Shown: piece by piece, positions 19,049 to 42,009 of the stretch
Layout: each line of letters opens with the position of its first letter
Numbering within the stretch: the first letter of the stretch is position 1
DNA from: Kofleriaceae bacterium
Lineage (GTDB): Bacteria > Myxococcota_A > Polyangia > Haliangiales > Haliangiaceae
Direction: 5' to 3'
Assembly (NCBI GenBank): GCA_024762925.1
Contig: JANTGM010000037.1
Location: 1 to 50,047 of the forward strand
Length of the DNA: 50,047 bases
Position numbers and translations under genes: made by a program
Notes under the pieces: model-generated
What the model was told of the DNA's origin: nothing
Databases searched by the model: none
The model's input: only the letters and a program-made list of their open reading frames with translations

Positions 19049-20518
19049 CTAGCTCTTCTCTTGCGATTTGCGCCGAATCGCCACCAACGCCATCAGCAGT
19101 AGAAGCCCACCAGCCCACGGCGATTGGCCAGGGGTGGTTTGACAGCCATTGGTGACCAAGCCCATGGGGCCATCAGGATCATCTGGCGTGCTCGGTGTGT
19201 CTGGTCTGTCTGGTGTGTCTGGTGCTTCACCTGTACTTGGGTCCTCTGGATCGGGCTCCTCTACGGGCTCTCCACCTTCAGGGATGAGACGAATTGCATC
19301 GACAACCACACGAGCTTCACCTTCGATGGCGACATCACTGTTGTCAAATACGATCAGCTTCTGTCCCGCACCCTCAGAGAAAGCAAAGGTACCGAGGCTC
19401 AACCATGGATCTTCTTGTCCAGCCACGGAAGTGAGGTCCGTTTCAATCGGAGCGAGTCCCCGACCGTGATAGAGGTAGTAGCGTGCGTTCTTGTGTGTTG
19501 CGAATTCGGGCGGAGCAAAGACTTGCAACTCATAGTTTCCGGCTTCCTCAAGGTCGATTTCCCATTCAGCAAAACTCTGATGCTTGCCACTCTGTACTGC
19601 GCGAGTCCAAGCCAGGCTGCCATTGTGTCCTTCGTTTTCGTGCTGCCAGTAGTTGGCAGGTCCGCGCAGCCAGATGCACGCATCAGAGTCAATCACCCCT
19701 CCAGTTGCAGGGATGGAGGCACAAACGCCGGTTGGTTCTGGCTCCTCGGGCTCTTGGTCACCAATCGGCGGAATGGAAGGGGCTTCGTCTTCTGGGGGAT
19801 CCTCCGAAGGCTCTTCTGGTAGTTCTTCAAGAGGATCGGGAATGGAAGGCGGTGGTGCTGGAGGCTCGGGCTCGGCGGAACCCTCTGGCTCAATTGGCGT
19901 CCAATCATCTTGCAGCCAGGTAGTCTCCCCACGACCAGCAGCTTCGGTGAGTTCGATGTGTAGGTGGTCATTGTGAGGATGTGCACCACTGTAGTAGCGC
20001 TCCTTGGTGCCTTTTTGGCGATGCCCACCCCAGCTTGTTCGGTCCCAAATGACAAACTGAATGCCGATGTCTTCAGCGTTGGCGACCAGAAAATTCCCAA
20101 TTGGATCTCCTTCGCCATTGTTGGCCTCGGCACCAAAGCCCACAGGCAACATGATGTCCAAAGCTCGGCCAGTGGAGTGCACCGATGCCTTGTTTGAGTT
20201 GCCAACGATGTGCCTACAGGAGAACCCGCCAATGCTGAGAATCTGGGGATACTTGTTCGTGAGGTAGTCGCGAAGAGCAATTGCTCCATCGGTTAGGCCG
20301 TCTCCGCAATCGCCTGTCCAGTCACCAGCACTGGTGTAGGAAACATCTTGATCATCCCCAATGCGAACAACCTCTGCGGGAATCCGCCATCGTGAGCCAG
20401 TCGCGTTGTCTTGCTTTGACGCTGTGGGATCGAAATAGGCTTGTTCTTCAGGGGCGCAGGCGCCGATGGTGAGGCCGACCAGGAGCAGAAGCAGGGAGAA
20501 GCGTGGAGAGGAGTGCAC
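19049..20518 (-). CDS. Lipoprotein peptidase (M15/ARB-07466-like) with golvesin domain and MYXO-CTERM-like tail
   Basis: The protein is about 489 aa. The N-terminus has a lipobox (LTIGAC). Residues of about 50-220 resemble the D-Ala-D-Ala carboxypeptidase-related ARB-07466-type domain: CRHIVGNS, SVHSTGRALDIMLP and HPHNDHLHIEL supply the His/Asp zinc ligands. A Pro/Glu-rich linker of about 70 residues follows. Next comes a golvesin/Xly CBD-like beta-sandwich (WEIDLEEAGNYELQVFAPP, ending VVVDAIRLIPEG), a second Pro/Asp/Thr linker, and finally GCQTTP, a hydrophobic helix and RRKSQEKS, which is a MYXO-CTERM-like sorting tail. Having both a lipobox and a C-terminal sorting tail is unusual. The function is probably peptidoglycan cleavage at the cell surface. 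The GTG at 20518 is the likely start, with no strong ribosome-binding site. Confidence 0.8.
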   Translation of the reverse strand: MHSSPRFSLLLLLVGLTIGACAPEEQAYFDPTASKQDNATGSRWRIPAEVVRIGDDQDVSYTSAGDWTGDCGDGLTDGAIALRDYLTNKYPQILSIGGFSCRHIVGNSNKASVHSTGRALDIMLPVGFGAEANNGEGDPIGNFLVANAEDIGIQFVIWDRTSWGGHRQKGTKERYYSGAHPHNDHLHIELTEAAGRGETTWLQDDWTPIEPEGSAEPEPPAPPPSIPDPLEELPEEPSEDPPEDEAPSIPPIGDQEPEEPEPTGVCASIPATGGVIDSDACIWLRGPANYWQHENEGHNGSLAWTRAVQSGKHQSFAEWEIDLEEAGNYELQVFAPPEFATHKNARYYLYHGRGLAPIETDLTSVAGQEDPWLSLGTFAFSEGAGQKLIVFDNSDVAIEGEARVVVDAIRLIPEGGEPVEEPDPEDPSTGEAPDTPDRPDTPSTPDDPDGPMGLVTNGCQTTPGQSPWAGGLLLLMALVAIRRKSQEKS

Positions 20519-20680
20519 GGGCGAAATTGATGCACAAAGCGCACCGTTTTTCGGTCCGACCCAAAGCAACGTTTTGTCTGCGCGTTTGTGGAATTACGGA
20601 TGCTTATGATTCCCTGGGGGATCTGATCTCATCACTGCTGGGCCCGTTGTCCCCACGGTCGCTGGAGACGCTGGACCTAC

Positions 20681-22090: not shown

Positions 22091-22307
22091 ACCGGAGGTT
22101 GCATCGTACCGGGCACATGCCGCACGTCCCAGAAACTCTCCCTCACTGATAGTTAGGATTCTGTGTGTTTCCTAGTATTTCAATAGCTTGCATTCGTTCC
22201 CCTGTGCTGTGGCAGTTCAAGATGTGCCCTCGCGATCTGAATCATTGGCCCGGCTCAACTTGCCCCCAGAGCGGCCGAATCGACAGACGTGATTGGGAAT
22301 GGGAACG

Positions 22308-23450
22308 ATGGCCGCTTTCACTAGGCGTGCCCTGATGCTTCTGGCTGCGGGTGCTGTGATGGGCGTGGCGGTTGTCCTCGGAGTGCTGCTTGTTCCCGAG
22401 TACTACTTCCTTGCTGTGCCTGGTCTCACCATTGCGGGCTTCACGCTCAATGATGGTGCGCGTGCGAGCTTGCGTGCGCAAGCGAAACTTCCCATCGAAT
22501 TGTTCGATACGGTGTTTCGCGGGTGCCTAGAACAAGCATTTCAGATTACAGAAGAGGTTAAGGAAAGTTCTGAATCTGGAGTCTTGCAAGCATCGGAGTC
22601 AGTTGCTCGCATTCATGCAGACCTGGGCAATCATGTTCGGGATATCGAGCTGCTTGAGGTCCGCATGGACGGCAAGGGAACCGACGACAGTCTCGCATCG
22701 GTGGTGAGCAAGCAGCGAACGTTCTTGGAATCCGTTCCGCAGGTATTGCGCGACATCGAGGGACGAACGCAGGACCTCACCAAAACGGCGATTGAAGCCC
22801 AGACACACACCTCCGACATCCTGGGTTTGGTTGGCGACATCAGAAAAATTACAAAGAGCAGCAAACTCTTGGCGGTCAACGCGTTGGTCGAAGCAGCACG
22901 AGCAGGAGATCGCGGTAGGGGATTTGCGGCAGTCGCTGTGACGATGCAACACGTCGCAGATCAAGTAGCAGCCTTCAGCGATTCGATCGCCCAGATCGGT
23001 GAGTCGATGGCTGGCATCCTGCCACAGATCGCCACCGTCTCCGACGCCATTCGTCAAACCTGCGCAGACCAAGCGACACAGTTGGCGAGTCGAGCGTTGC
23101 GGCTCGATGAAGTGTATGACGCACAGCGCTCAGACCTGCTCGAACTGATGGGTGGACTTAAGCAAGGCGGTCTTCACGTTCGTACCAACACCAACCAAAT
23201 TCTCCGAGAGCTGCAGTTCCAAGACCGAATGCGTCAAGAACTGGAGCGCGTGCAAGCCCGCACAAGGGTACCACTGCAAGTCTTAGAAGCGCTGAACCTT
23301 GAGATTCAAACGGGGGCCGTTGCCACAGAGTCGTGCGAGGAGCGCTTGTGGGCTCTCGTGGAGCAGGTGAGGAGCGACTCTCGGTTGGACACCACACATT
23401 CCGATGGAGCTGAGGAGGGGCAAGCCTGCGGCACCTTCGAAATGTTCTAG
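22308..23450 (+). CDS. Methyl-accepting chemotaxis-like protein without a sensor domain
   Basis: The protein is about 380 aa. A short basic N-terminus leads into two closely spaced hydrophobic segments (LMLLAAGAVMGVAVVLGVLL, then YFLAVPGLTIAGFTL) with almost no loop between them. A long cytoplasmic coiled-coil follows, with the receptor hairpin region around KLLAVNALVEAARAGDRGRG and FAAVAVTMQHVADQV. No periplasmic sensor domain fits, so input must come from the membrane or from partners. The C-terminus ends TFEMF, an aromatic-x-x-Phe pentapeptide like the CheR/CheB tether of other receptors. ATG 22308 follows GGGA; ATG 22299 and TTG 22293 are alternatives. It is the first gene of the chemosensory operon. 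Confidence 0.8.
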   Translation: MAAFTRRALMLLAAGAVMGVAVVLGVLLVPEYYFLAVPGLTIAGFTLNDGARASLRAQAKLPIELFDTVFRGCLEQAFQITEEVKESSESGVLQASESVARIHADLGNHVRDIELLEVRMDGKGTDDSLASVVSKQRTFLESVPQVLRDIEGRTQDLTKTAIEAQTHTSDILGLVGDIRKITKSSKLLAVNALVEAARAGDRGRGFAAVAVTMQHVADQVAAFSDSIAQIGESMAGILPQIATVSDAIRQTCADQATQLASRALRLDEVYDAQRSDLLELMGGLKQGGLHVRTNTNQILRELQFQDRMRQELERVQARTRVPLQVLEALNLEIQTGAVATESCEERLWALVEQVRSDSRLDTTHSDGAEEGQACGTFEMF

Positions 23451-23554
23451 CTAGCTTGGCCCCCAAGGATTCCTTCGCGAGATCGAAATCGTTGAATGCT
23501 GTGCGCGATGGCTGCAGAAACTCTGCTCTTTGGCCGATACGGGAATGGCACGGA

Positions 23555-23869
23555 ATGGAAACAAAGGCAATACAGATCGAGGTTGGGGCGACGTTGGACA
23601 TCGACACGGTTGGAAGTCTCCACCGACAAATCTGCGATGCGATGGACCATGCCTCTGACTTGGACCTGGACCTGTCCGCTGTTGTCAACTTCGACACGGC
23701 GGGCATGCAGCTCCTGGTCGCAACAGCGCTCGCCTGCCAAAAACGGGGCCTGAGGGTCAGCTTTGCGGGGCCACGTGCAGAGCTGGCAGCCGCTGTTGCG
23801 AGTCTCGACTTAGCAAAGTTCTTAGGGGCTTGGCCTGTGGAAAACGCGAATCACGAGGTTTGCGCCTAG
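23555..23869 (+). CDS. STAS-domain protein of the chemosensory operon
   Basis: This is a 104-aa, single-domain STAS protein (anti-anti-sigma-factor fold). The signature VNFDTAGMQLLVATALACQ corresponds to the DSxG region of SpoIIAA-like proteins, with Thr where the phosphorylated Ser usually sits. STAS proteins are found in some chemotaxis clusters and may bind CheA or act as a phospho-switch; its partner here is unknown. The start is ATG 23555. The frame is open back to 23456, but that part does not look like the family. It lies 13 nt upstream of cheY. Confidence 0.82.
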   Translation: METKAIQIEVGATLDIDTVGSLHRQICDAMDHASDLDLDLSAVVNFDTAGMQLLVATALACQKRGLRVSFAGPRAELAAAVASLDLAKFLGAWPVENANHEVCA

Positions 23870-23882
23870 CAGAAGGGAAACT

Positions 23883-24245
23883 ATGGCACAGATACTCACG
23901 ATCGATGACTCAGCCACCATGCGCCAGCTTCTGCGCACAACTCTCGCAGATGCTGGCCATCATGTCATTGAGGCGAAAGATGGTGTCGAGGGCCTGCAGG
24001 TGGCACATGGCTGCTCGCCGAGAGTTGTCATCACGGACATCAACATGCCGAGGATGGACGGCCTAACGCTTATCAAGAAGCTCCGCGCCATTCCCGAATA
24101 CAAACGGATTCCGATCATCGTTCTGACTACCGAGATCGACGGCAAGAAGAAACAAATCGCAAAAACGGCAGGGGCTACGGGGTGGATAACCAAACCGTTT
24201 GATCCACCCAAACTACTGGCCGCCATTAAGCGAGTGCTGGGCTAG
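23883..24245 (+). CDS. cheY: Response regulator receiver protein, CheY-like
   Basis: This is a 120-aa, stand-alone receiver domain. It has the acidic pair in LTIDDSATMR, the phospho-acceptor D52 in VITDINMPRMDG, the Thr in IVLTTEID and the Lys in WITKPFDP. It is predicted to be phosphorylated by CheA of the same operon and to carry the signal to a motor or to a gliding/regulatory output. AGAAGGGAA lies just before the ATG. Confidence 0.95.
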   Translation: MAQILTIDDSATMRQLLRTTLADAGHHVIEAKDGVEGLQVAHGCSPRVVITDINMPRMDGLTLIKKLRAIPEYKRIPIIVLTTEIDGKKKQIAKTAGATGWITKPFDPPKLLAAIKRVLG

Positions 24246-24263: not shown

Positions 24264-26294
24264 ATGGCATTGGATCCGAGATTCAGGGCGCTCTTCGAGA
24301 CCTTCTTCGAGGAGGCGGCTGAGGGGCTTACGGCAGCCGAAGGCGCGCTGCTCAACCTCAGTCCAGGAAGCGAAGATAGCGAACTCGTAAATCTTCTGTT
24401 TCGGTCCATACACTCGATCAAAGGCGGGGGAGGTACGTTTGGCTTCACTCATCTCGGACGTCTTTCGCACGTCATGGAGACGCTCCTCGATCAAGTTCGG
24501 GAAGGCTCACGGCATCTAGAGTCGCACTCACAAGATCTTCTCCTCCAGAGCGTCGATTGTCTGCGATGCATCTTGATTGCGCACAAAGAAGCTGTGGATG
24601 TGGATGAGGAGCGATGTGAGCGTTTAAGCCTCGAAATCGAGAGCATCCTGGCCGCTGGGCCTGGTGCTGCAAAGGAGGCGGCCCCAAACACTGAGGTCGT
24701 CGAATCGCTTCACTCGCAGCATGGCTGGCGAATCGCGTTTCAACCGTTTCCGCACTTCATGGCTCATGGGAACGATCCATATCGTCTGATTCGGTTGGTG
24801 CAGGAGCTTGGGCCAACTACCATCGTGAGCAGCTTTGCGGAGGCCAAGAGCTTTGCCAGCTTTGAGCCCGAAACGTGTGCATGCTCGTGGATTCTCGAGC
24901 TTCGTGGAGAGGCTTCTCGCGAAGAGGTTCGGGACATATTCTCGTGGGTTGAAGGCGACGATTGCGAGCTTGAAATTGTCGAACTGGCCGACGAGAGCGC
25001 TTCCAAAACTGAAGCAGAATTCGAGGTTGCAAGCGAGGTGGCAACACACGCGACATCACAAGCGAGTACCTCGGTGCAAATGGCGTCGAGTTCGATTCGA
25101 GTTCCGGTAGACAAGATCGATAGCCTCGTGAACTTGGTTGGTGAACTCGTCATAACCCAATCAATGCTTGCACGAGTGGAACAAGACAACGTTCTGCACC
25201 AAGTTCCTGAGCTGCGCGATGGCCTCGGTGAACTTGAGCGCAACACCAGAGAGCTGCAGGAGACTGTCATGCGAATTCGCATGTTGCCGATTGGAACGAC
25301 CTTTGCTCGGTTTCCACGGCTGGTTCACGACCTGGGCCGCCAACTCGGCAAGCACATCGACCTTCGGCTTTCTGGGGAAAACACCGAGCTCGATAAGACC
25401 GTGTTGGAAAACATCGGTGACCCCTTGGTGCACATAATTCGCAACTGCGTCGATCATGGGATTGAAGCGCCCGCGTCTCGGGAAGCCGTTGGAAAGGATC
25501 CCATGGGCACCATTGATTTGAGAGCCTTTCATCAGGGCGGCCACGTTGTGATCGAAGTTCGCGATGATGGGGCAGGGGTGAATCGGGAGAAACTGCTCGC
25601 AAAGGCCGCCGAGAAGGGTTTGGTAGAAGCAGATGCTGCATTGTCTGATGAACAAGTTCTGCAGATTCTCTTCCATCCCGGTCTGAGCACAGCCGAGCAG
25701 GTTTCCGACATCTCGGGGCGTGGTGTGGGCATGGACGTGGTGAAACGAAATATCGAGGCACTCGGGGGCGCGATTGCCGTCGCTAGTGAACCTGGCAAGG
25801 GCACGCTCTTTCGGATTCGTCTTCCCCTCACGCTCGCGATCATCGACGGCCAGAGGGTTCGGATTGGTGACGAGACGTACATTATTCCACTTGTAAATAT
25901 TGTCGAGTCTCTACAGGCCAAACATCACCATATTACGTGTATTGCAGGCCGTGCCGAAGTGTATCGCTTTCGAGGCGAGGCGCTTCAATTGGTGCGAGTG
26001 TCAGAAGTTCTCTCAGTTCCGAGAAGTCAGAAGTCTCGCGATGGAATGGTCGTTGTTGTGGAAGGTGATGACCGCGAGGTTGCGCTAGTGGTGGATGAAC
26101 TCTTGGGGATTCAGCAAGTGGTGATCAAGAGCCTCGACACCAATTTTGAACGCGTTGCCGGACTCTCTGGTGCCACTATCTTGGGAGACGGAACGATCGC
26201 ACTCATTTTGGACATGAACGGATTGATTCGACTGGCAAATAGCTGGAGGCATTCTCGTGCCACGCAAAGCCGATGCCGTTTGGCATCGCAGTAG
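24264..26294 (+). CDS. cheA: Chemotaxis histidine kinase CheA
   Basis: This is a 676-aa sensor kinase in the usual order. The P1 Hpt domain has H50 in FRSIHSIKGGGGTFGF. A P2-like region follows (HGWRIAFQPFPHFMAHGNDP). Next are the P3 dimerisation helices starting DKIDSLVNLVGELVI, then the P4 ATPase with N-box NCVDHGIEAPASR, G1 DDGAGVN and G2 GRGVGMDVVK. A C-terminal CheW-like P5 domain starts near VRIGDETYIIPL. It phosphorylates CheY and CheB and possibly controls the STAS protein. No receiver domain is fused to it. Start ATG has GAGGG about 7 nt upstream. Confidence 0.97.
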   Translation: MALDPRFRALFETFFEEAAEGLTAAEGALLNLSPGSEDSELVNLLFRSIHSIKGGGGTFGFTHLGRLSHVMETLLDQVREGSRHLESHSQDLLLQSVDCLRCILIAHKEAVDVDEERCERLSLEIESILAAGPGAAKEAAPNTEVVESLHSQHGWRIAFQPFPHFMAHGNDPYRLIRLVQELGPTTIVSSFAEAKSFASFEPETCACSWILELRGEASREEVRDIFSWVEGDDCELEIVELADESASKTEAEFEVASEVATHATSQASTSVQMASSSIRVPVDKIDSLVNLVGELVITQSMLARVEQDNVLHQVPELRDGLGELERNTRELQETVMRIRMLPIGTTFARFPRLVHDLGRQLGKHIDLRLSGENTELDKTVLENIGDPLVHIIRNCVDHGIEAPASREAVGKDPMGTIDLRAFHQGGHVVIEVRDDGAGVNREKLLAKAAEKGLVEADAALSDEQVLQILFHPGLSTAEQVSDISGRGVGMDVVKRNIEALGGAIAVASEPGKGTLFRIRLPLTLAIIDGQRVRIGDETYIIPLVNIVESLQAKHHHITCIAGRAEVYRFRGEALQLVRVSEVLSVPRSQKSRDGMVVVVEGDDREVALVVDELLGIQQVVIKSLDTNFERVAGLSGATILGDGTIALILDMNGLIRLANSWRHSRATQSRCRLASQ

Positions 26295-26307
26295 AAGGAG
26301 TAGAGCA

Positions 26308-26841
26308 ATGGAAGGGGTTATTGGACTGGGCGACACGAGCATTGCGGCAATCGGCACAAGCGAGTCAGGGGCCTCCAAAGGTGCACAGCAGTTTCTGACA
26401 TTCATGCTCGACGAGCAGGAATACGGAGTGGACATCCTCGATGTACAGGAGATTCGCGGCAAAGGGACGGTTACTCGCATTCCCAACGTTCCAAGCGACA
26501 TTCGAGGCATCATAAATCTTCGCGGCATCATCGTGCCCGTAGTGGACTTGCGAGTGCGATTTGGGATGGAGGCGAAGTCAGCCCCCCCAAAGCGTGTGAG
26601 TATTGTTGTGCTCAAAGTTAAGAGCGGTAACCGAGAACGTGCCGTTGGGATCGTGGTCGATGCAGTCTCTGATGTCTATAGCGTCACCGCGGACAACATT
26701 AAGGACGCCCCCGAGATGGGCGACGATGTAGATCACGAATTCGCCTCGGGCCTAGCGATTGTGGGCGAGAGGCTCATCATCTTGCTGGAAGCGAGCAAGC
26801 TTCTCAGCGGCGAGGCAACTGGCGATTTGGAAGCAAGGTAG
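26308..26841 (+). CDS. cheW: Chemotaxis coupling protein CheW
   Basis: CheW links receptors to CheA. The 177-aa protein has a 25-residue polar N-terminal extension, then a single CheW domain: [51 protein letters not shown] and [13 protein letters not shown]. The start is ATG 26308, with GGAG spaced 7 nt upstream; an earlier in-frame ATG lies inside cheA and is rejected. It is located between cheA and the soluble receptor gene. Confidence 0.95.
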
Positions 26842-26855
26842 GCGGGCACGGAACT

Positions 26856-28958
26856 ATGAAAACCAACAAGGACAAGACTATGGACAAGAGGAAGGCTGCG
26901 AAACCTGCTGCGAAGAGGAAGGCTGCGAAACCTGCTGCGAAGAGGAAGGCTGCGAAACCTGCGGTGAAGAAGAAGGCTGCGAAACCTGTGGTGAAGAAGA
27001 AGGCTGCGAAACCTGCCGTGAAGAAGCCACGTACACGAGGCCCGAGCAAGAAAGAGGTCGCGCTCGCAGCGGAACTCACGCGTTTCAAGTCGGCGTTAAA
27101 CCTGGCGACAACCGCCATGATGTCCATCAACAAGGACTTCGAAGTTGATTACGCCAATGACGAGACCTATCGGCTACTGGAGTATCACGCGGACACACTG
27201 CGCACGCTGTATCCATCGTTTCGTACCGAAAGGCTCCTTGGTACATGCATTGACATCTTTCACCGTGTTCCATCCCATCAGAGAAACCTTCTCGCCGATC
27301 CACAGAATCTGCCATTCAAGTCGGTGATAACGGTTGGCCCGCTGAAGTTCGAAATCAACGTGGCGGGCATCTCCAGTGAGGACGGTGAGATTGACGGGTG
27401 GTTTCTTTGTTGGGATGACGTCACCGAGAAACACGCGCAGGAAACGGAGTCACTGAGACTGCAGTCAGCCATCGATAACGCTCGCACCGCGATCATGATG
27501 ATCGATATGGACCTGACAATCACGTATGTGAATCAGTCCACGAAGAAACTGCTCGCTGCTCGGCGCGACGAACTGCGGCGTCTGTACCCAACGTTTGAGG
27601 TTGAGAACATTGTTGGCACGTGCATTGACGTGTTTCATCGAAACCCGGCGCACCAACGCCGTTTGCTCTCCGACCCGTCCAATCTGCCGTGGCAATCCGA
27701 CATCAACGTTGGGCCGCTGACCTTCGACATTAACGTTCGGGGCGTCTACGATGTTGATGGCAAACAGGTTGGCTGCTCCCTTGAATGGGACGATGTAACG
27801 GACCAGCGCAATGGTCAGGAACAGGTTGAGAGAATCATTGCCTCGGCAGTTGGTGGCCAGCTTGATGGGCGGATTGAGACATCTGCCTACTCTGGTTTTA
27901 TGCGCGACTTCTGCGAAGGGGTTAACAGTCTTGTCGATGCCATTGTGGCGCCAATGGACGGAATTTCCAACGTCGCCGATGCTCTTGCCAAAGGCGATCT
28001 AACCAAGACGATGGAGGGCGAGTATCAAGGCCAGTTCGCATCGGTGAAGGACTCTCTCAATGCCAGCATCGCCGTGCTGAGCTCGATGGTGGCCAAGATC
28101 AACTACACCGCAAGCGAGTTGTCGGCAGAGGCGAGCACAATTTCCCAGGGCAATACCGAGCTGAATGATCGCACGCAGGAACAGGCCGCCTCGCTTGAGG
28201 AAACCGCTGCGGCCGTCGAGCAAATGACGTCGACAACAAGGCAGAACGCGACCAACGCCAACAATGCAAGCACGTTGAGCCGTGAGGCGTCGCTTTTGGC
28301 GAATCGTGGTGGGGATGTCGTAGGGAAGGCTGTTACTGCCATGGAGAGCATCAATTCGGCATCTAAGAAAATTGCGGATATTATCGGGGTTATCGACGAG
28401 ATTGCGTTTCAGACGAACATTCTCGCGCTGAACGCCGCAGTGGAGGCGGCCCGCGCTGGAGAGCAAGGTCGCGGATTCGCTGTTGTCGCCTCCGAAGTGC
28501 GCAACCTCGCGCAACGCAGCGCTGGCGCAGCCAAGGAGATCAAGGGGCTAATTCAAGACAGTGTTGAGAGAGTCGCAGAAGGTTCAAGCTTGGTGAATGA
28601 ATCGGGGCAGACTCTTTCCGAGATTGTGCGTTCTGTTGACCAGGTGAGTCGAATCATTGAAGACATTGCCACAGCCTCGGAGGAACAGAGTGCTGGTGTC
28701 GAGTCCATCAATCAGGCCGTGATGAAGCTTGACGAGATGACACAGAAGAATGCGGCTCTTGTCGAAGAGGCGGCGGCCACAAGTGGTGCTATGGACGTCA
28801 AGGCGCATGGCCTCCTTGATCTCATGAATCACTTCACCATTGACAAGGGGCAAGCAGCTCCCGTGCCTTCGATGCCAGCTGCATCGAGAACAACGACCTC
28901 GGCATCGGTTCGGGCAGCGCCCATGTCCAGTCCTGGCGATGGCTGGTCCGAGTTCTAG
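26856..28958 (+). CDS. Soluble chemoreceptor with histone-like basic tail and two PAS domains
   Basis: The protein is 700 aa with no membrane segment. Residues of about 9-60 are very basic and are made of five 9-residue repeats of [18 protein letters not shown] type, resembling histone H1 or HU-like C-tails. Two PAS domains follow, both with the receptor-type motif [15 protein letters not shown] or [15 protein letters not shown] and ending WDDVT. Next come a HAMP-like region ([21 protein letters not shown]) and the signalling coiled coil with the hairpin [20 protein letters not shown] and [20 protein letters not shown]. The C-terminus is GWSEF, an aromatic-x-x-Phe tether pentapeptide. It should be a cytoplasmic receptor; the tail suggests DNA or nucleoid attachment, as reported for FrzCD of Myxococcus. 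Start is ATG 26856; ATG 26880 is also possible. Confidence 0.93.
26886..27020 (+). repeat. Five tandem 27-bp repeats encoding Lys/Ala/Pro units
   Basis: Five in-frame copies of a 27-bp unit occupy 26886-26912, 26913-26939, 26940-26966, 26967-26993 and 26994-27020. The first two are identical; later ones differ by a few bases, giving KR/KK and AA/AV/VV changes only. The repeat encodes the histone-H1-like tail of the soluble receptor and could expand or contract by slippage. Confidence 0.92.
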
Positions 28959-29017: not shown

Positions 29018-29875
29018 ATGAGTGACGAGTTTGACAAGAACCGGGACTACCGTTTCACGAAAGCGCACTTTGCCTACCTCTCAGGCCTGGTGGAGCGGGA
29101 GATTGGAATCCAGCTTCCCGAGCACAAGGAGCGCTTGGTCTACGGACGGCTTGTGCACAGACTGCGGGACTTGAGGTTGAGCGACTGTGAGGATTACATC
29201 CGCCTGCTCGAAGACCCAAGCAGTGGAGAGATGCGAGAATTCCTAAACGCCGTGACGACCAACGTGACGTCGTTTTTTCGGGAACCACATCAGTGGAAAG
29301 CGCTGCGAGAGAGGTTGCTCCCGGAACTCCTGGCGACAAAGTCCGAAAAGCGTCTTCGCATTTGGTCGGCGGGATGCTCAACCGGGCAAGAGCCCTACAG
29401 CATCATGATGTGCCTCAGTGAGTTCTTTGATGAGTCTTGGGACGTCCAGCTTCTGGCGACCGACTTGGATACAAAGGTCATTGAGACGGCCCAAGAGGCA
29501 ATCTACAAAGAAGAGTTGGTGAATCGATTTACGCAAGCACAGAAGAGACGATGGTTGTTTCGTGGCACTGGTGAACACCGTGGAATGGTGAAGGTTCGTC
29601 CAGAGCTGCGGACGAACGTGACATTTAAGCCGCTCAATCTGCTTAAGCCGTGGCCCTTTGCCGGCCCATTCGACATGATTTTCTGCCGCAATGTCATGAT
29701 CTACTTTGACAAGCAGCTCATGTTCGATCTGGTTCGGCGGTTCGAAGAGAAACTCACGCCTGGTGGACTGCTCTTGGTTGGCCACTCAGAATCTCTTGTC
29801 GGTGGAGATTTTCGACTTGAATCGATTGCGAGGAACACCTATCGAATGCCACCTGTCACAGAGCGGGCTGCATGA
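29018..29875 (+). CDS. cheR: Chemotaxis protein methyltransferase CheR
   Basis: CheR methylates receptor glutamates using S-adenosylmethionine, for adaptation. The 285-aa protein has the N-terminal helical domain (FAYLSGLVEREIGIQLPEHK), the VTTNVTSFFREPHQW motif, the SAM-binding IWSAGCSTGQEPYS and the IFCRNVMIYFDKQ motif, ending GHSESLVGG and YRMP. It starts with ATG. The stop overlaps the cheD start by ATGA, so translation is coupled. Confidence 0.97.
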   Translation: MSDEFDKNRDYRFTKAHFAYLSGLVEREIGIQLPEHKERLVYGRLVHRLRDLRLSDCEDYIRLLEDPSSGEMREFLNAVTTNVTSFFREPHQWKALRERLLPELLATKSEKRLRIWSAGCSTGQEPYSIMMCLSEFFDESWDVQLLATDLDTKVIETAQEAIYKEELVNRFTQAQKRRWLFRGTGEHRGMVKVRPELRTNVTFKPLNLLKPWPFAGPFDMIFCRNVMIYFDKQLMFDLVRRFEEKLTPGGLLLVGHSESLVGGDFRLESIARNTYRMPPVTERAA

Positions 29876-30501
29876 GGGTTGTCGATCGAAGCGCGGGGCA
29901 GGCCTATTCGGTGTTCTGGGACCCACGTTCGGAACGCCAGATCCTCCGCGTATCTCCGGGGGGCTACTGTGTAACGCAAGGGTCGCATCTGATTAGCACC
30001 GTGCTAGGGTCGTGCGTCGCAACATGCATCCGTGACCCAAAGGCTCAAGTAGCCGGCATGAATCATTTCATGCTTCCGGAAGCGCCTGACGATGGCCACG
30101 AGGAATGGCGTGGCCTCACGGGAATGGAAGCACGCTACGGGAACTTCGCGATGGAGTGCCTTATCAATGAGCTGATGGCCCGTGGCGCGGCAAAAGAAAG
30201 AATGCAGGTGAAAGTTTTCGGTGGTGGTGATGTTCTAGGGGCGGAACGGTCGGGGGCTTCGCTTGCGAGGTCTGTGGGGAATCGGAATATCGCGTTTGTA
30301 AGAGAATATCTTAAGAGCGAAGGGCTGGTTGTGATGTCTCAGGATCTTGGTGGGCGCGTTTCTCGGAGTGTGAGGTATTTGCCGATTACCGGCCAAGTGT
30401 GGGTGAAACACATGGAGCATCGAACGTCATCGGAAGAAGCCGCGTATCGGAAACGGCTTCACGACGAGCGTGTTGAGACAAACGATGTCGAGTTTTTCTA
30501 G
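29872..30501 (+). CDS. cheD: Chemoreceptor glutamine deamidase CheD
   Basis: CheD deamidates receptor glutamines to glutamates. The 209-aa protein has the catalytic Cys in TVLGSCVATCIRD, the His in AGMNHFMLP and the Thr/Lys-containing VKVFGGGDVL region, plus a C-terminal helix extension (SSEEAAYRKRLHDERVETND). It starts four bases inside cheR. The TAG stop is provided by the CTAG that begins the downstream inverted-repeat element. Confidence 0.95.
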   Translation: MRVVDRSAGQAYSVFWDPRSERQILRVSPGGYCVTQGSHLISTVLGSCVATCIRDPKAQVAGMNHFMLPEAPDDGHEEWRGLTGMEARYGNFAMECLINELMARGAAKERMQVKVFGGGDVLGAERSGASLARSVGNRNIAFVREYLKSEGLVVMSQDLGGRVSRSVRYLPITGQVWVKHMEHRTSSEEAAYRKRLHDERVETNDVEFF

Positions 30502-30679
30502 TGCGCGATCCAGAAAAATTGAGATGGGATCGCGAAGTACGCTTGTTCGCTGCTAAGGCGCGCGAAGGGAGCTTGCTGGGGCAAGTGACCGATCAAGCAA
30601 CCATGAGCGTTGACTCATCAACACGTCCAGCAAGGAGAAGACGAGTGAGCACGCTCAACCTCTTTGAATCGCGCACTAG
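30498..30679 (+). repeat. Inverted-repeat (MITE-like) element, copy between cheD and cheB
   Basis: This is a 182-bp element with CTAG at both ends and terminal inverted repeats: CTAGTGCGCGATCCA at the left and CTAGTGCGCGATTCA (read in reverse) at the right, differing at one position. Inside are the hairpin CTTGC-TGGG-GCAAG (30572-30585), the box GTGACCGATCAAGCAAC and a second hairpin GTTGA-CTCA-TCAAC (30609-30622). It contains no transposase. It starts on the TAG stop of cheD and shares its right CTAG with the next element. Confidence 0.85.
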
Positions 30680-30849
30680 TGTCGGGTCCAGAATGGTTGA
30701 TCGACGATCGCGAAGGGGGGGCGTTCACAGGCAAAGCGCGAACAACGAGCTTGCTGGGGCAAGGGAGGCGCTGAGCAACGCAGAGCCGAAGGCGTCCAGA
30801 GGACGAAGAACCGAGCGAGCGCGAGCAAGATTTTTGAATCCGACACGAG
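30676..30849 (+). repeat. Second inverted-repeat (MITE-like) element upstream of cheB
   Basis: This is a 174-bp element in tandem with, and in the same orientation as, the preceding copy. The left end is CTAGTGTCGGGTCCAGAA; the right end read in reverse is CTCGTGTCGGATTCAAAA, 14 of 18 matching. The ends differ from those of the neighbour (TCGG instead of GCGCG) but still match each other. Internal hairpins are CTTGC-TGGG-GCAAG (30750-30763) and CGTCC-AGA-GGACG (30793-30805). The right end stops a few bases before the cheB ribosome-binding site. The two elements fill the whole cheD-cheB gap. Confidence 0.8.
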
Positions 30850-30868
30850 TGCAGAAAGGTGAAGGATA

Positions 30869-31909
30869 GTGGGCGCGATTAAGGTCTTGATTGTCGATGA
30901 CTCAGCTTTGGTCTGTGAAATGCTGACGGGCATCTTTGCGAGCGATTCTGCCTTTGAAGTTGTGGGGGTTGCCCATGATCCATACGAGGCTCGCGACCTC
31001 ATCAAGCAACTCAACCCAGACGTGTTGACGCTGGATATTGAAATGCCCCGAATGGATGGTATTAGCTTCTTGCGCAACCTCATGCGCTTGCGGCCGATGC
31101 CTGTAGTCATGGTCTCGTCACTCACGCAGAGGGGCAGCAAGCAGACCCTAGACGCACTTGAGCTTGGTGCTTTCGACTTTGTCGCCAAGCCACATACGGG
31201 CGACTTGCGAGATTTGGAAACCGAGATTCGCCGCAAAGTTCGCGCCGCGGCTGGAATCGGAGTCACGAGCGTCCAGCGGCCCAAACCAGAACCAACAGAG
31301 CGTATTGGCAGGCAGGGCACAAGCATCATTGGCATCGGTGCTTCGACCGGAGGTACTTCGGCACTAAGACATGTTCTGGCTGAGATGCCCGCCGATAGCC
31401 CACCGATCGCTATCGTGCAGCACTTGCCAGCTGCCTTCAGCAAGGCCTTTGCCAAACGCCTTGATGGTGTGTCACCACTGGCCGTTACACTTGCGGAAGA
31501 CGGTATGCACGTTATGCCAGGGCACGCCTATGTGGCCCCGGGGGACGCGCATATGACAGTGGAGGGGCGCAGGAGGGTCGTCTTGCGCCTAGAGAAATCC
31601 GCGTGTGTCAACGGCCATATGCCGGCCGTAGACCCGCTCTTTGCTTCGATGGCTGCGAACCTCAGTGACCGATGCATTGGCGCTTTGATGACGGGGATGG
31701 GCGCCGATGGGGCCGCTGGGCTGTTGGCGATTCGCAGGGCCGGCGGCTATACCCTTGCGCAGGACGAGGCTACTTCGGTGGTGTGGGGTATGCCAGGTGA
31801 AGCGGTGAAACGAGGAGCCGCCTGCGAAGTGGTAGGACTGCCAACGCTGGCCCGTAGCCTAGTTCGCGTGGTTCGCAAGCAAGCCGACCGCAGAAACGCT
31901 GCTGGCTAA
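30869..31909 (+). CDS. cheB: Protein-glutamate methylesterase CheB
   Basis: CheB removes receptor methyl groups and deamidates glutamines when phosphorylated by CheA. The 346-aa protein has an N-terminal receiver domain (VDDSALVCEML, phospho-site D56 in LTLDIEMPRMDG, K107 in DFVAKPHT) and a C-terminal methylesterase with catalytic S159 in IGIGASTGGTSAL, H185 in IVQHLPAAF and D280 in MTGMGADGAAG. The start is GTG 30869, preceded by AAGGTGAAGGA. It is separated from the rest of the operon by two repeat elements, which may change its expression relative to cheR and cheD. Confidence 0.97.
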   Translation: MGAIKVLIVDDSALVCEMLTGIFASDSAFEVVGVAHDPYEARDLIKQLNPDVLTLDIEMPRMDGISFLRNLMRLRPMPVVMVSSLTQRGSKQTLDALELGAFDFVAKPHTGDLRDLETEIRRKVRAAAGIGVTSVQRPKPEPTERIGRQGTSIIGIGASTGGTSALRHVLAEMPADSPPIAIVQHLPAAFSKAFAKRLDGVSPLAVTLAEDGMHVMPGHAYVAPGDAHMTVEGRRRVVLRLEKSACVNGHMPAVDPLFASMAANLSDRCIGALMTGMGADGAAGLLAIRRAGGYTLAQDEATSVVWGMPGEAVKRGAACEVVGLPTLARSLVRVVRKQADRRNAAG

Positions 31910-40593: not shown

Positions 40594-42009
40594 CTAGTCG
40601 CGCCGTCGGCGACGGAGCCCGAAGAGCGCTAGGAGCATCAGAAGACTTCCGAATTGCCCACTGCTTCCCGCGGTGCTGCAGCCACCAGACTCGGTCGTCT
40701 TGGGCCAGCAGAGTCCCGACTCAGGTCCCGTTTCAAGGCAGGCAAAGTCCTCAGGGCACGAAGTAGCGTCGATGGGGCTGCACTCACTGGTACAGCGTTG
40801 CTCATCGTCGAGGGTTGCGCACTGGCCGCTTCCACACTGGGGGCCGCCCTCACAAAGATCTCCAAGCTCGTAGTTGGGAGACTCGCAGACGCCTGCTGAC
40901 CCGCAGATGGTGAAGTTATCGCAGTCTTGTGGCCCGTCGCAGGTGGAGTCGAGCGTGACAGAAATCTTCTTACTCGTAACGTCGCCCCGGTTGTCGTAGG
41001 CGCGAGCCTCAATCTCGACGACTCCATCGGGAGTCGTTGTCGGTGTCGAGATCACGAAGGGGGGCAAGCGGCCCAAGAGGTTGGCTTCGAGCTGGCCATT
41101 GACGTAGATTTCGACGTTCTCAAGGCGTGTATCGTCGCTAGCTTCCACATGGACTTGAAAGCCACGTTTGACCTCGGCACCATCGACGGGATTCACGTAC
41201 TCAAGGCTGGGGGGTTGAGCGATGTCATTTTGCGCCACGTAGGTGCTGATGAAGTCGGTGTACTGCGCCACGCGAGTACCACCAGATTCGCCCAGGCAGC
41301 CTTGCAGGCCGTAGGAAGTAATGCTGGCGATGCGCTCAATGCCCCCCGAAAAGGTCAGCAGTCCAGGGCCGCCCGAGTCGCCCTGACAAGTATTGCCACT
41401 GCTATCGCCGTAGAGCATGACCGCGCTGTTGCGAAACCCTGTAACGGGCGTTTGCATATGCCGTTTGCGTCCGCTGCCCACTTCAAAGGCGGTATTTCCC
41501 CAGCCAATCACGTGTAGGGGCGCGCCAATCGCGTTGTTGCCTAGTACCTGTGTGTTGTACTCCATGGGTTCAACGTCGCTATCGTGCTCAAGCAGGACCA
41601 TGGCGATGTCATTGCCCGAAAGGCTCCATGGGTCGAAGTACGTCCAATCCGCGGCCGGAATGCTCTGGATGAAGTTTTCGTCTTGGCCATTGACCCTGGT
41701 GCCGAAGTAGGCCGTAATCGACTCGATAGGTCCTTCCTCCAGATCGATGCAGTGAGCCGCAGTGAGCAAGACCCGAGGTGAGATGAGGGTACTGGAGCAG
41801 TTGAAGGTCCCGCTGCCGTTGGCTGTGGTCACGGAAATGTTCGCAACTGCAGGATACTCGGTTGTTGTGGTTCCGCCGACGATGGCGCTTTGCTCGGTTT
41901 CAACGCTCACTTCTTGGCCGCAGGCCGCCAGAGCTAAGGTGAGGGGAATCGCAAGAAGCGAGGGATGGTGGCGGCACGAGGAGGGTACGAGCATGTGGGC
42001 AGGGTGCAT
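40594..42009 (-). CDS. Secreted trypsin-like serine protease with MYXO-CTERM-like tail
   Basis: The protein is 471 aa. The N-terminus is a lipoprotein-like signal (LALAAC), then a short propeptide ending at IVGG, the usual trypsin activation site. The S1 triad is present: His in LLTAAHCID, Asp in SGNDIAMVLL and Ser in QGDSGGPGL. An Ig-like or cadherin-like domain follows (YVNPVDGAEVKRGFQV), then a cysteine-rich segment with many C-x(4-8)-C pairs. The tail is GGCSTAG, a hydrophobic helix and RRRRRD, a MYXO-CTERM-like sorting signal. It probably acts at the cell surface or is released, for example in predation. Start ATG 42009 or 41994. Confidence 0.9.
   Translation of the reverse strand: MHPAHMLVPSSCRHHPSLLAIPLTLALAACGQEVSVETEQSAIVGGTTTTEYPAVANISVTTANGSGTFNCSSTLISPRVLLTAAHCIDLEEGPIESITAYFGTRVNGQDENFIQSIPAADWTYFDPWSLSGNDIAMVLLEHDSDVEPMEYNTQVLGNNAIGAPLHVIGWGNTAFEVGSGRKRHMQTPVTGFRNSAVMLYGDSSGNTCQGDSGGPGLLTFSGGIERIASITSYGLQGCLGESGGTRVAQYTDFISTYVAQNDIAQPPSLEYVNPVDGAEVKRGFQVHVEASDDTRLENVEIYVNGQLEANLLGRLPPFVISTPTTTPDGVVEIEARAYDNRGDVTSKKISVTLDSTCDGPQDCDNFTICGSAGVCESPNYELGDLCEGGPQCGSGQCATLDDEQRCTSECSPIDATSCPEDFACLETGPESGLCWPKTTESGGCSTAGSSGQFGSLLMLLALFGLRRRRRD

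Follow-up and report, generated by a model that had tools for sequence, protein, structure and literature searches.

The question raised by this locus is why a chemoreceptor that is soluble by prediction should begin with a tail resembling that of histone H1. The receptor is encoded at 26856-28958 (+) of the window, by which is meant the whole 50,047-nucleotide stretch of Kofleriaceae bacterium DNA that was analysed (contig JANTGM010000037.1). Judged from its sequence, it is close to certain to be an Aer2-type protein of PAS-PAS-HAMP-MCP architecture, lying in an F7-like chemosensory gene cluster. The best single reading of its tail, and one that we hold to be reasonably probable, is that it acts as an electrostatic tether of the receptor to the nucleoid. 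The domain family, the key residues, the operon, the composition of the tail and the basic tails of the family's other F7-cluster receptors can all be read off directly, and they form the basis of the argument developed below.

The repeat array and the basic tail

The open reading frame encodes 700 residues, and its frame is certain because the same frame that encodes the tail runs on into the PAS and MCP domains. Two candidate start codons are present, ATG at 26856 and ATG at 26880, the second with AAGGA upstream, and all of the repeats are kept whichever is used. Five nine-residue units, in perfect phase and starting at residues 11, 20, 29, 38 and 47 (codons 11-55), follow the pattern K-R/K-K-A-A-K-P-x-x, and the first two both read KRKAAKPAA. 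In the DNA, the five units K[RK]KAAKPxx and a partial sixth (KK) form a 27-bp tandem array at 26886..27024 (+), which Tandem Repeats Finder describes as 5.1 copies with 94% match and a score of 222, making it the strongest tandem array of the window. Units 1 and 2 are identical at all 27 bases, which implies a recent duplication. The exact number of units is provisional, because the assembly (246 contigs) breaks at several other KPAAK arrays. In the two genomes of the same genus, no orthologous CheA or receptor was found. Scans for promoters and terminators returned nothing above chance.

The array occupies most of a basic N-terminal tail of residues 1-62 (26856..27041, +), the proposed tether to a polyanion or the nucleoid. 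Within it, 27 Lys or Arg residues stand against only two Asp or Glu, alongside 16 Ala and six Pro, and the 49-residue run from 11 to 59 is composed solely of Lys, Arg, Ala, Pro and Val. Aromatic and large hydrophobic residues are absent, and each unit contains one proline. The tail is predicted to be disordered: in the AlphaFold model, the predicted local distance difference test score is 34-37 over residues 1-60 and below 50 over residues 1-63, with no secondary structure. Beyond the tail, the model contains two PAS folds, a HAMP region, a long coiled coil and a flexible 35-residue C-terminus, and the receptor possesses no transmembrane segment. A first-pass annotation, made from the letters and translations of this DNA, had described five such units ahead of two PAS domains and a signalling domain, and had likened the Lys/Ala/Pro tail of this soluble receptor to histone H1. 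These descriptions are borne out, while the HAMP region (PF18947, residues 347-408) and the Aer2 heme type of both PAS domains had been overlooked.

Basic N-termini among related receptors

In the family to which the genome belongs, an F7-like CheA was found in 4 of 30 genomes at an E value of 1e-115. These genomes yielded five F7-cluster receptors, namely the window receptor, two from G005, and one each from G007 and G026, all of which have basic N-termini. The G005 receptors start with MPRKPQKPSPSSARSAPRRDRLT and MPTRTPRRRVTLAPPSPRTKS, that of G007 with MKTSSRTARRPATKRAGTTRRKT, and that of G026 with MKKKIKTSKKPQSTTPRRKTIAHKR. Expressed as net charge over 35 N-terminal residues, the values are +13 for the window receptor, +8 and +9 for the G005 pair, +11 for G007 and +12 for G026. 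The corresponding mean for 72 other receptors of the Aer2 type is -1.6 (standard deviation 3.2), with a single one at +8 or more. The hypergeometric value for the first four family receptors is 4e-6, a crude guide that takes account of neither kinship nor the exploratory origin of the comparison. The G026 receptor was located by CheA search alone, after the basic-tail pattern had been noted, and thus represents a fair prediction.

The tails of the family do not align overall, and G007 and G026 have RRKTIA in common. Lysine is replaced by arginine in the GC-richer genomes (57% versus 67-72%), and the choice between the two seems to follow GC content. The sensor module also varies, the G026 receptor having a PAS_3-type domain and lacking an Aer2 PAS, and the basic tail is still present. 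As far as these sequences tell, then, what is conserved in the tail is its charge and not its sequence, and the nine-residue repeat is unique to the window receptor.

This distribution bears on a further explanation, in which the repeats are a near-neutral expansion, by slippage in steps of 27 bp, of a disordered start that contributes solubility or spacing and has no binding partner. The near-identical DNA of the units is what recent slippage would give, no close relative shares the unit, and K/A/P arrays are common in the genome. However, basic tails of unlike sequence recur in the family's other F7-cluster receptors, the held-out genome included, and the duplicate receptor pair has kept a basic tail in both copies. 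Neutral expansion is therefore the explanation to which we give very little credence.

In the CheA tree, G005, G007 and G026 fall in one supported clade with L071, a Myxococcales record, as its sister. The window CheA lies outside this clade, so that the basic tails require two label changes on the tree, and a single-clade origin of all the family tails was rejected on this ground. The F7 cluster of G005 (L035:5988-11321) contains its two basic-tailed receptors in tandem, one of them exceeding 1000 residues and possessing extra PAS domains. Outside the family, sporadic basic stretches occur in the gammaproteobacterial relatives L142, L132 and L074. Several globin-Aer2 receptors of gammaproteobacteria (among them L074, L131, L095 and L087) share a peptide close to DPLAWM, which is followed by a Lys/Arg-rich linker and then by the globin.

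Aer2-type domains and the F7-like cluster

Each of the two PAS domains belongs to the Aer2 heme type. PAS1 (27048..27425, +; residues ~65-190) matches the structures 6ceq (E 1.3e-17) and 3vol (E 5e-14). PAS2 (27444..27803, +; residues 197-316) matches 6ceq, a PAS structure of V. cholerae Aer2, with an E value of 2e-20, and together with the HAMP region it matches 3vol, the PAS-HAMP structure of P. aeruginosa Aer2, with an E value of 1e-39. Foldseek matches include 3vol, 6ceq and 4hi4. The NCBIfam model for Vibrio Aer2 spans residues 70-680 with an E value of 2e-230, yet the match falls under the curated cut-off of that model.

In P. aeruginosa Aer2 the heme-ligand histidine is H234, and the tryptophan of the O2 site is the residue that we take to be labelled W283, a numbering which fits the 4hi4 alignment. 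The counterparts of H234 are His136 in PAS1 (27261-27263, +) and His261 in PAS2 (27636-27638, +). Those of the tryptophan, which is reported to stabilise O2 in Aer2 (PMC9855816), are Trp186 (27411-27413, +) and Trp311 (27786-27788, +). H261 and W311 are invariant across ten aligned relatives, and a 20-row alignment shows near-invariance for H136 and W186. From these residue matches, both PAS domains may be expected to bind heme and O2.

The HAMP region (27843..28088, +; residues ~330-411, with PF18947 at 347-408) joins PAS2 to an MCP signalling coiled coil of the 36H type (28032..28829, +; residues ~393-658). No gap interrupts the colinearity of the latter with E. coli Tsr, residues 439-662 aligning in this way to the Tsr structure 1qu7. 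The C-terminal pentapeptide GWSEF (28941..28955, +) fits the CheR-tether motif x-[HFYW]-x2-[HFYW] of Aer2-like receptors.

The surrounding genes, all on the forward strand and separated by gaps of at most 59 bp or overlapping, follow the order MCP, STAS, CheY, CheA, CheW, receptor, CheR, CheD, 122-aa open reading frame and CheB. The MCP (22293..23450), whose N-terminus contains a hydrophobic segment and which stands in a McpA-like position, is weakly similar to MCPs of other clusters. It is followed by a STAS-domain protein (23456..23869), a CheY-type response regulator (23883..24245) that is as much as 52% identical to the CheY encoded in the clusters of relatives, a CheA kinase with Hpt, dimerisation, ATPase and CheW domains (24264..26294), and the CheW coupling protein (26257..26841). 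Downstream of the receptor are the CheR methyltransferase (29018..29875), the CheD deamidase (29872..30501) and the CheB methylesterase (30869..31909). The 122-aa frame (30501-30869), which has no NCBIfam match, shares its first base with cheD and its last with cheB.

By its gene content this is a cluster of the F7/Che2 kind, like Che2 of P. aeruginosa, and not a Frz cluster. The F7 clusters of P. aeruginosa, V. cholerae and S. oneidensis pair an Aer2-like 36H receptor with a transmembrane receptor (PMC7184735), and the core order CheY-CheA-CheW-receptor-CheR-CheD-CheB recurs in L038 and L039, from the same phylum, and in L071. In the CheA tree, which included 21 CheAs from gammaproteobacterial Aer2 clusters, the window row lies near these, most of the deep forks lacking strong support. 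Few genomes of the phylum encode an F7-like CheA: 7 of the 379 sampled (E 1e-120). The Frz gene set comprises two CheW-like proteins, FrzE, FrzF, FrzG and FrzZ, and is not matched by the window cluster, which has one CheW and a CheD; together with the two PAS domains, the Aer2/F7 gene set led to the rejection of Frz membership. A search of 284 phylum genomes with a FrzCD sequence gave no match, with few candidates scored and no positive control, and is uninformative on the presence of FrzCD. Elsewhere in the window, two putative surface proteins, one trypsin-like protease (19052-20569, -) and one peptidase-like (40597-42009, -), end in MYXO-CTERM sorting signals, which makes a myxobacterium-like host probable.

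Placement of the receptor and comparison with known systems

In the mechanism that we propose, heme and O2 would be bound by the two PAS domains, and the signal would travel via the HAMP region to the 36H tip that controls CheA and CheW. Adaptation would be carried out by CheR, CheB and CheD, the GWSEF tether at the C-terminus retaining CheR. In composition the tail, which lies at the opposite end of the rod from CheA and CheW, is similar to histone H1 or the KPAA tails of AlgP and PhaF; it would anchor the receptors to the nucleoid through charge contacts that do not depend on DNA sequence, such that the array would assemble on the surface of the chromosome instead of the membrane. Selection would keep the charge of the tail and not its sequence, and the nine-residue repeats would be one lineage's recent route to that charge. 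We infer DNA binding and a nucleoid location of the receptor by analogy with two precedents. First, FrzCD needs its basic N-terminus to bind DNA efficiently and irrespective of sequence; its arrays assemble on the nucleoid, cooperativity is lost without the N-terminal domain, and FrzCD homologues retain positive charge rather than sequence (PMC5716589), while the HAMP domains modulate DNA binding (PMC12077210). Second, DNA binding has been observed for KPAA peptides, and PhaF is believed to attach granules to the nucleoid through its KPAA tail (PMC9239181).

The company that such tails keep within the genome favours DNA contact in part. Topoisomerase I, a RecQ-type helicase, and HTH, BRCT and WGR proteins have K/A/P tails or linkers. 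So, however, do a biotin carrier protein, a trypsin-like/PDZ protease and a protein in which one hydrophobic segment is present, and a tail of this kind is therefore by itself no proof of DNA binding. This leaves room for an explanation in which the partner of the tail is another polyanion (polyphosphate granules, RNA or ribosomes) and the receptor is thereby located at a body in the cytoplasm instead of on DNA. The KPAA-tailed AlgP localises to polyphosphate granules (PMC9239181), and the non-DNA proteins just named are in keeping with this explanation as well. Yet the same study of AlgP found that KPAA peptides bind DNA and proposed tethering to the nucleoid, and the one chemoreceptor precedent, FrzCD, is nucleoid-bound; we therefore judge another polyanion to be an improbable partner.

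Five-residue KKPAA arrays are common in the genome (the reversed-pattern control gave 0), and the nine-residue array is unique in it; a copy of the receptor tail elsewhere in the genome was accordingly rejected. The RecQ-type helicase (DEAD, Helicase_C and RecQ_Zn_bind domains; L193:2-2044, contig C136) carries 23 or more KKPAA-type units as an N-terminal tail, and the contig ends inside this tail. The AccB-like biotin-lipoyl carrier protein (L187:2080-2748, contig C30) begins with a KKPAAKK tail, and an unusual mix of HTH_17 and PTS EIIA-2 domains with a C-terminal (KKPAA)16 tail is encoded at L186:430-1743 (contig C25). Contigs C108, C112, C115, C136 and C232 end inside KKPAA arrays or a few tens of bases from them, and further tailed proteins are therefore probably truncated or missing in the assembly.

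Several observations, in addition to the tails on the carrier protein, the protease and the protein with one hydrophobic segment, weigh against a nucleoid tether. By cryo-electron tomography, the F7 arrays of four gammaproteobacteria are seen attached to the inner membrane, even though a transmembrane segment is missing from most of their Aer2 receptors (PMC7184735). When produced in E. coli, the Aer2 of Shewanella was isolated from the solubilised membranes (PMC9855816). The charge comparison uses start codons assigned by rule, and its statistic ignores shared ancestry. In other F7 receptors of the phylum, the N-terminus is a globin in L038 and L071 and acidic in L039, and thus the basic tail is not class-wide.

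The two membrane observations are the foundation of the main rival explanation, in which the basic tail grips the anionic inner membrane and so anchors a receptor that has no transmembrane segment, as in the F7 arrays of other bacteria. The short aromatic-basic peptides with which Vibrio Aer2 relatives begin (MAFWNRK, MSWWKRN) could likewise be membrane contacts. However, an amphipathic insertion helix is unlikely for the window tail, because it lacks aromatic and large hydrophobic residues and has a proline in each unit, and its composition matches that of known DNA-binding KPAA tails. The lack of aromatics is more in keeping with a hydrophilic polyanion as partner. Membrane anchoring by the tail is thus, in our view, unlikely, though it must be taken seriously. 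As for the tether to the nucleoid, the first-pass annotation had suggested a nucleoid-bound array independent of Frz. The independence stands, given the F7/Aer2-type cluster. The nucleoid itself is supported in part, by the FrzCD-homologue-like pattern of basic N-termini in every family F7-cluster receptor found and by the KPAA precedent, and is opposed by the membrane-bound state of known F7 arrays and the tails on the carrier protein and protease.

A bolder proposal, which we put forward tentatively and would not expect to hold as readily as the tether itself, is that this is a second, independently evolved chromosome-anchored array. Heme-containing, O2-sensing F7 receptors would have moved from the membrane to the nucleoid by means of basic tails, perhaps twice in one family, and here by an H1-like repeat tail whose length could set the strength of binding. 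FrzCD has been described as unique among chemoreceptors in having DNA for its scaffold. No description of an Aer2 receptor on the nucleoid was found in the literature searched, where one paper contrasts Aer2 clusters with the nucleoid clusters of FrzCD. If an O2-sensing F7 receptor is scaffolded in the same way through an unrelated tail, nucleoid anchoring would be a recurrent and easily evolved option for soluble receptors, with charge and not sequence as its requirement. The receptor also offers a clean tail-swap system for learning how F7 arrays without transmembrane segments choose between membrane and chromosome.

In most respects the window receptor resembles Aer2/McpB of the F7 systems (P. 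aeruginosa Che2, V. cholerae cluster III and S. oneidensis Che1). It has their PAS-(PAS)-HAMP-MCP order, lack of a transmembrane segment, heme histidine and tryptophan, 36H signalling domain and C-terminal xWxxF tether, in a CheY-CheA-CheW-receptor-CheR-CheD-CheB cluster that also includes a putative transmembrane MCP. Unlike them, it possesses a 62-residue H1-like tail, where most other Aer2-type receptors start with short acidic or neutral peptides, a globin, or further HAMP or PAS domains; the known F7 arrays are membrane-bound.

With FrzCD of Myxococcus xanthus, the receptor has in common that it is soluble and that a basic N-terminal tail precedes its HAMP and MCP domains, and in both groups of relatives charge rather than sequence is conserved. 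FrzCD, however, has two HAMPs, no sensor domain and Frz partners, in place of the two Aer2-type PAS domains, the Aer2/F7 cluster and the tandem-repeat tail found here, and its DNA binding has been demonstrated, whereas that of the window receptor is what we infer. The disordered K/A/P-repeat tail itself is most like the KPAA tails of AlgP and PhaF from Pseudomonas and the C-terminal tail of histone H1. In AlgP and PhaF, the tail is C-terminal on granule-associated proteins with an alpha-helical or phasin N-terminal domain, while that of the window receptor is N-terminal, shorter (~49 residues), built from a nine-residue unit and attached to a chemoreceptor. Neither FrzCD nor AlgP/PhaF is an Aer2-type receptor, and it is on a receptor of this type that the tail described here is found.
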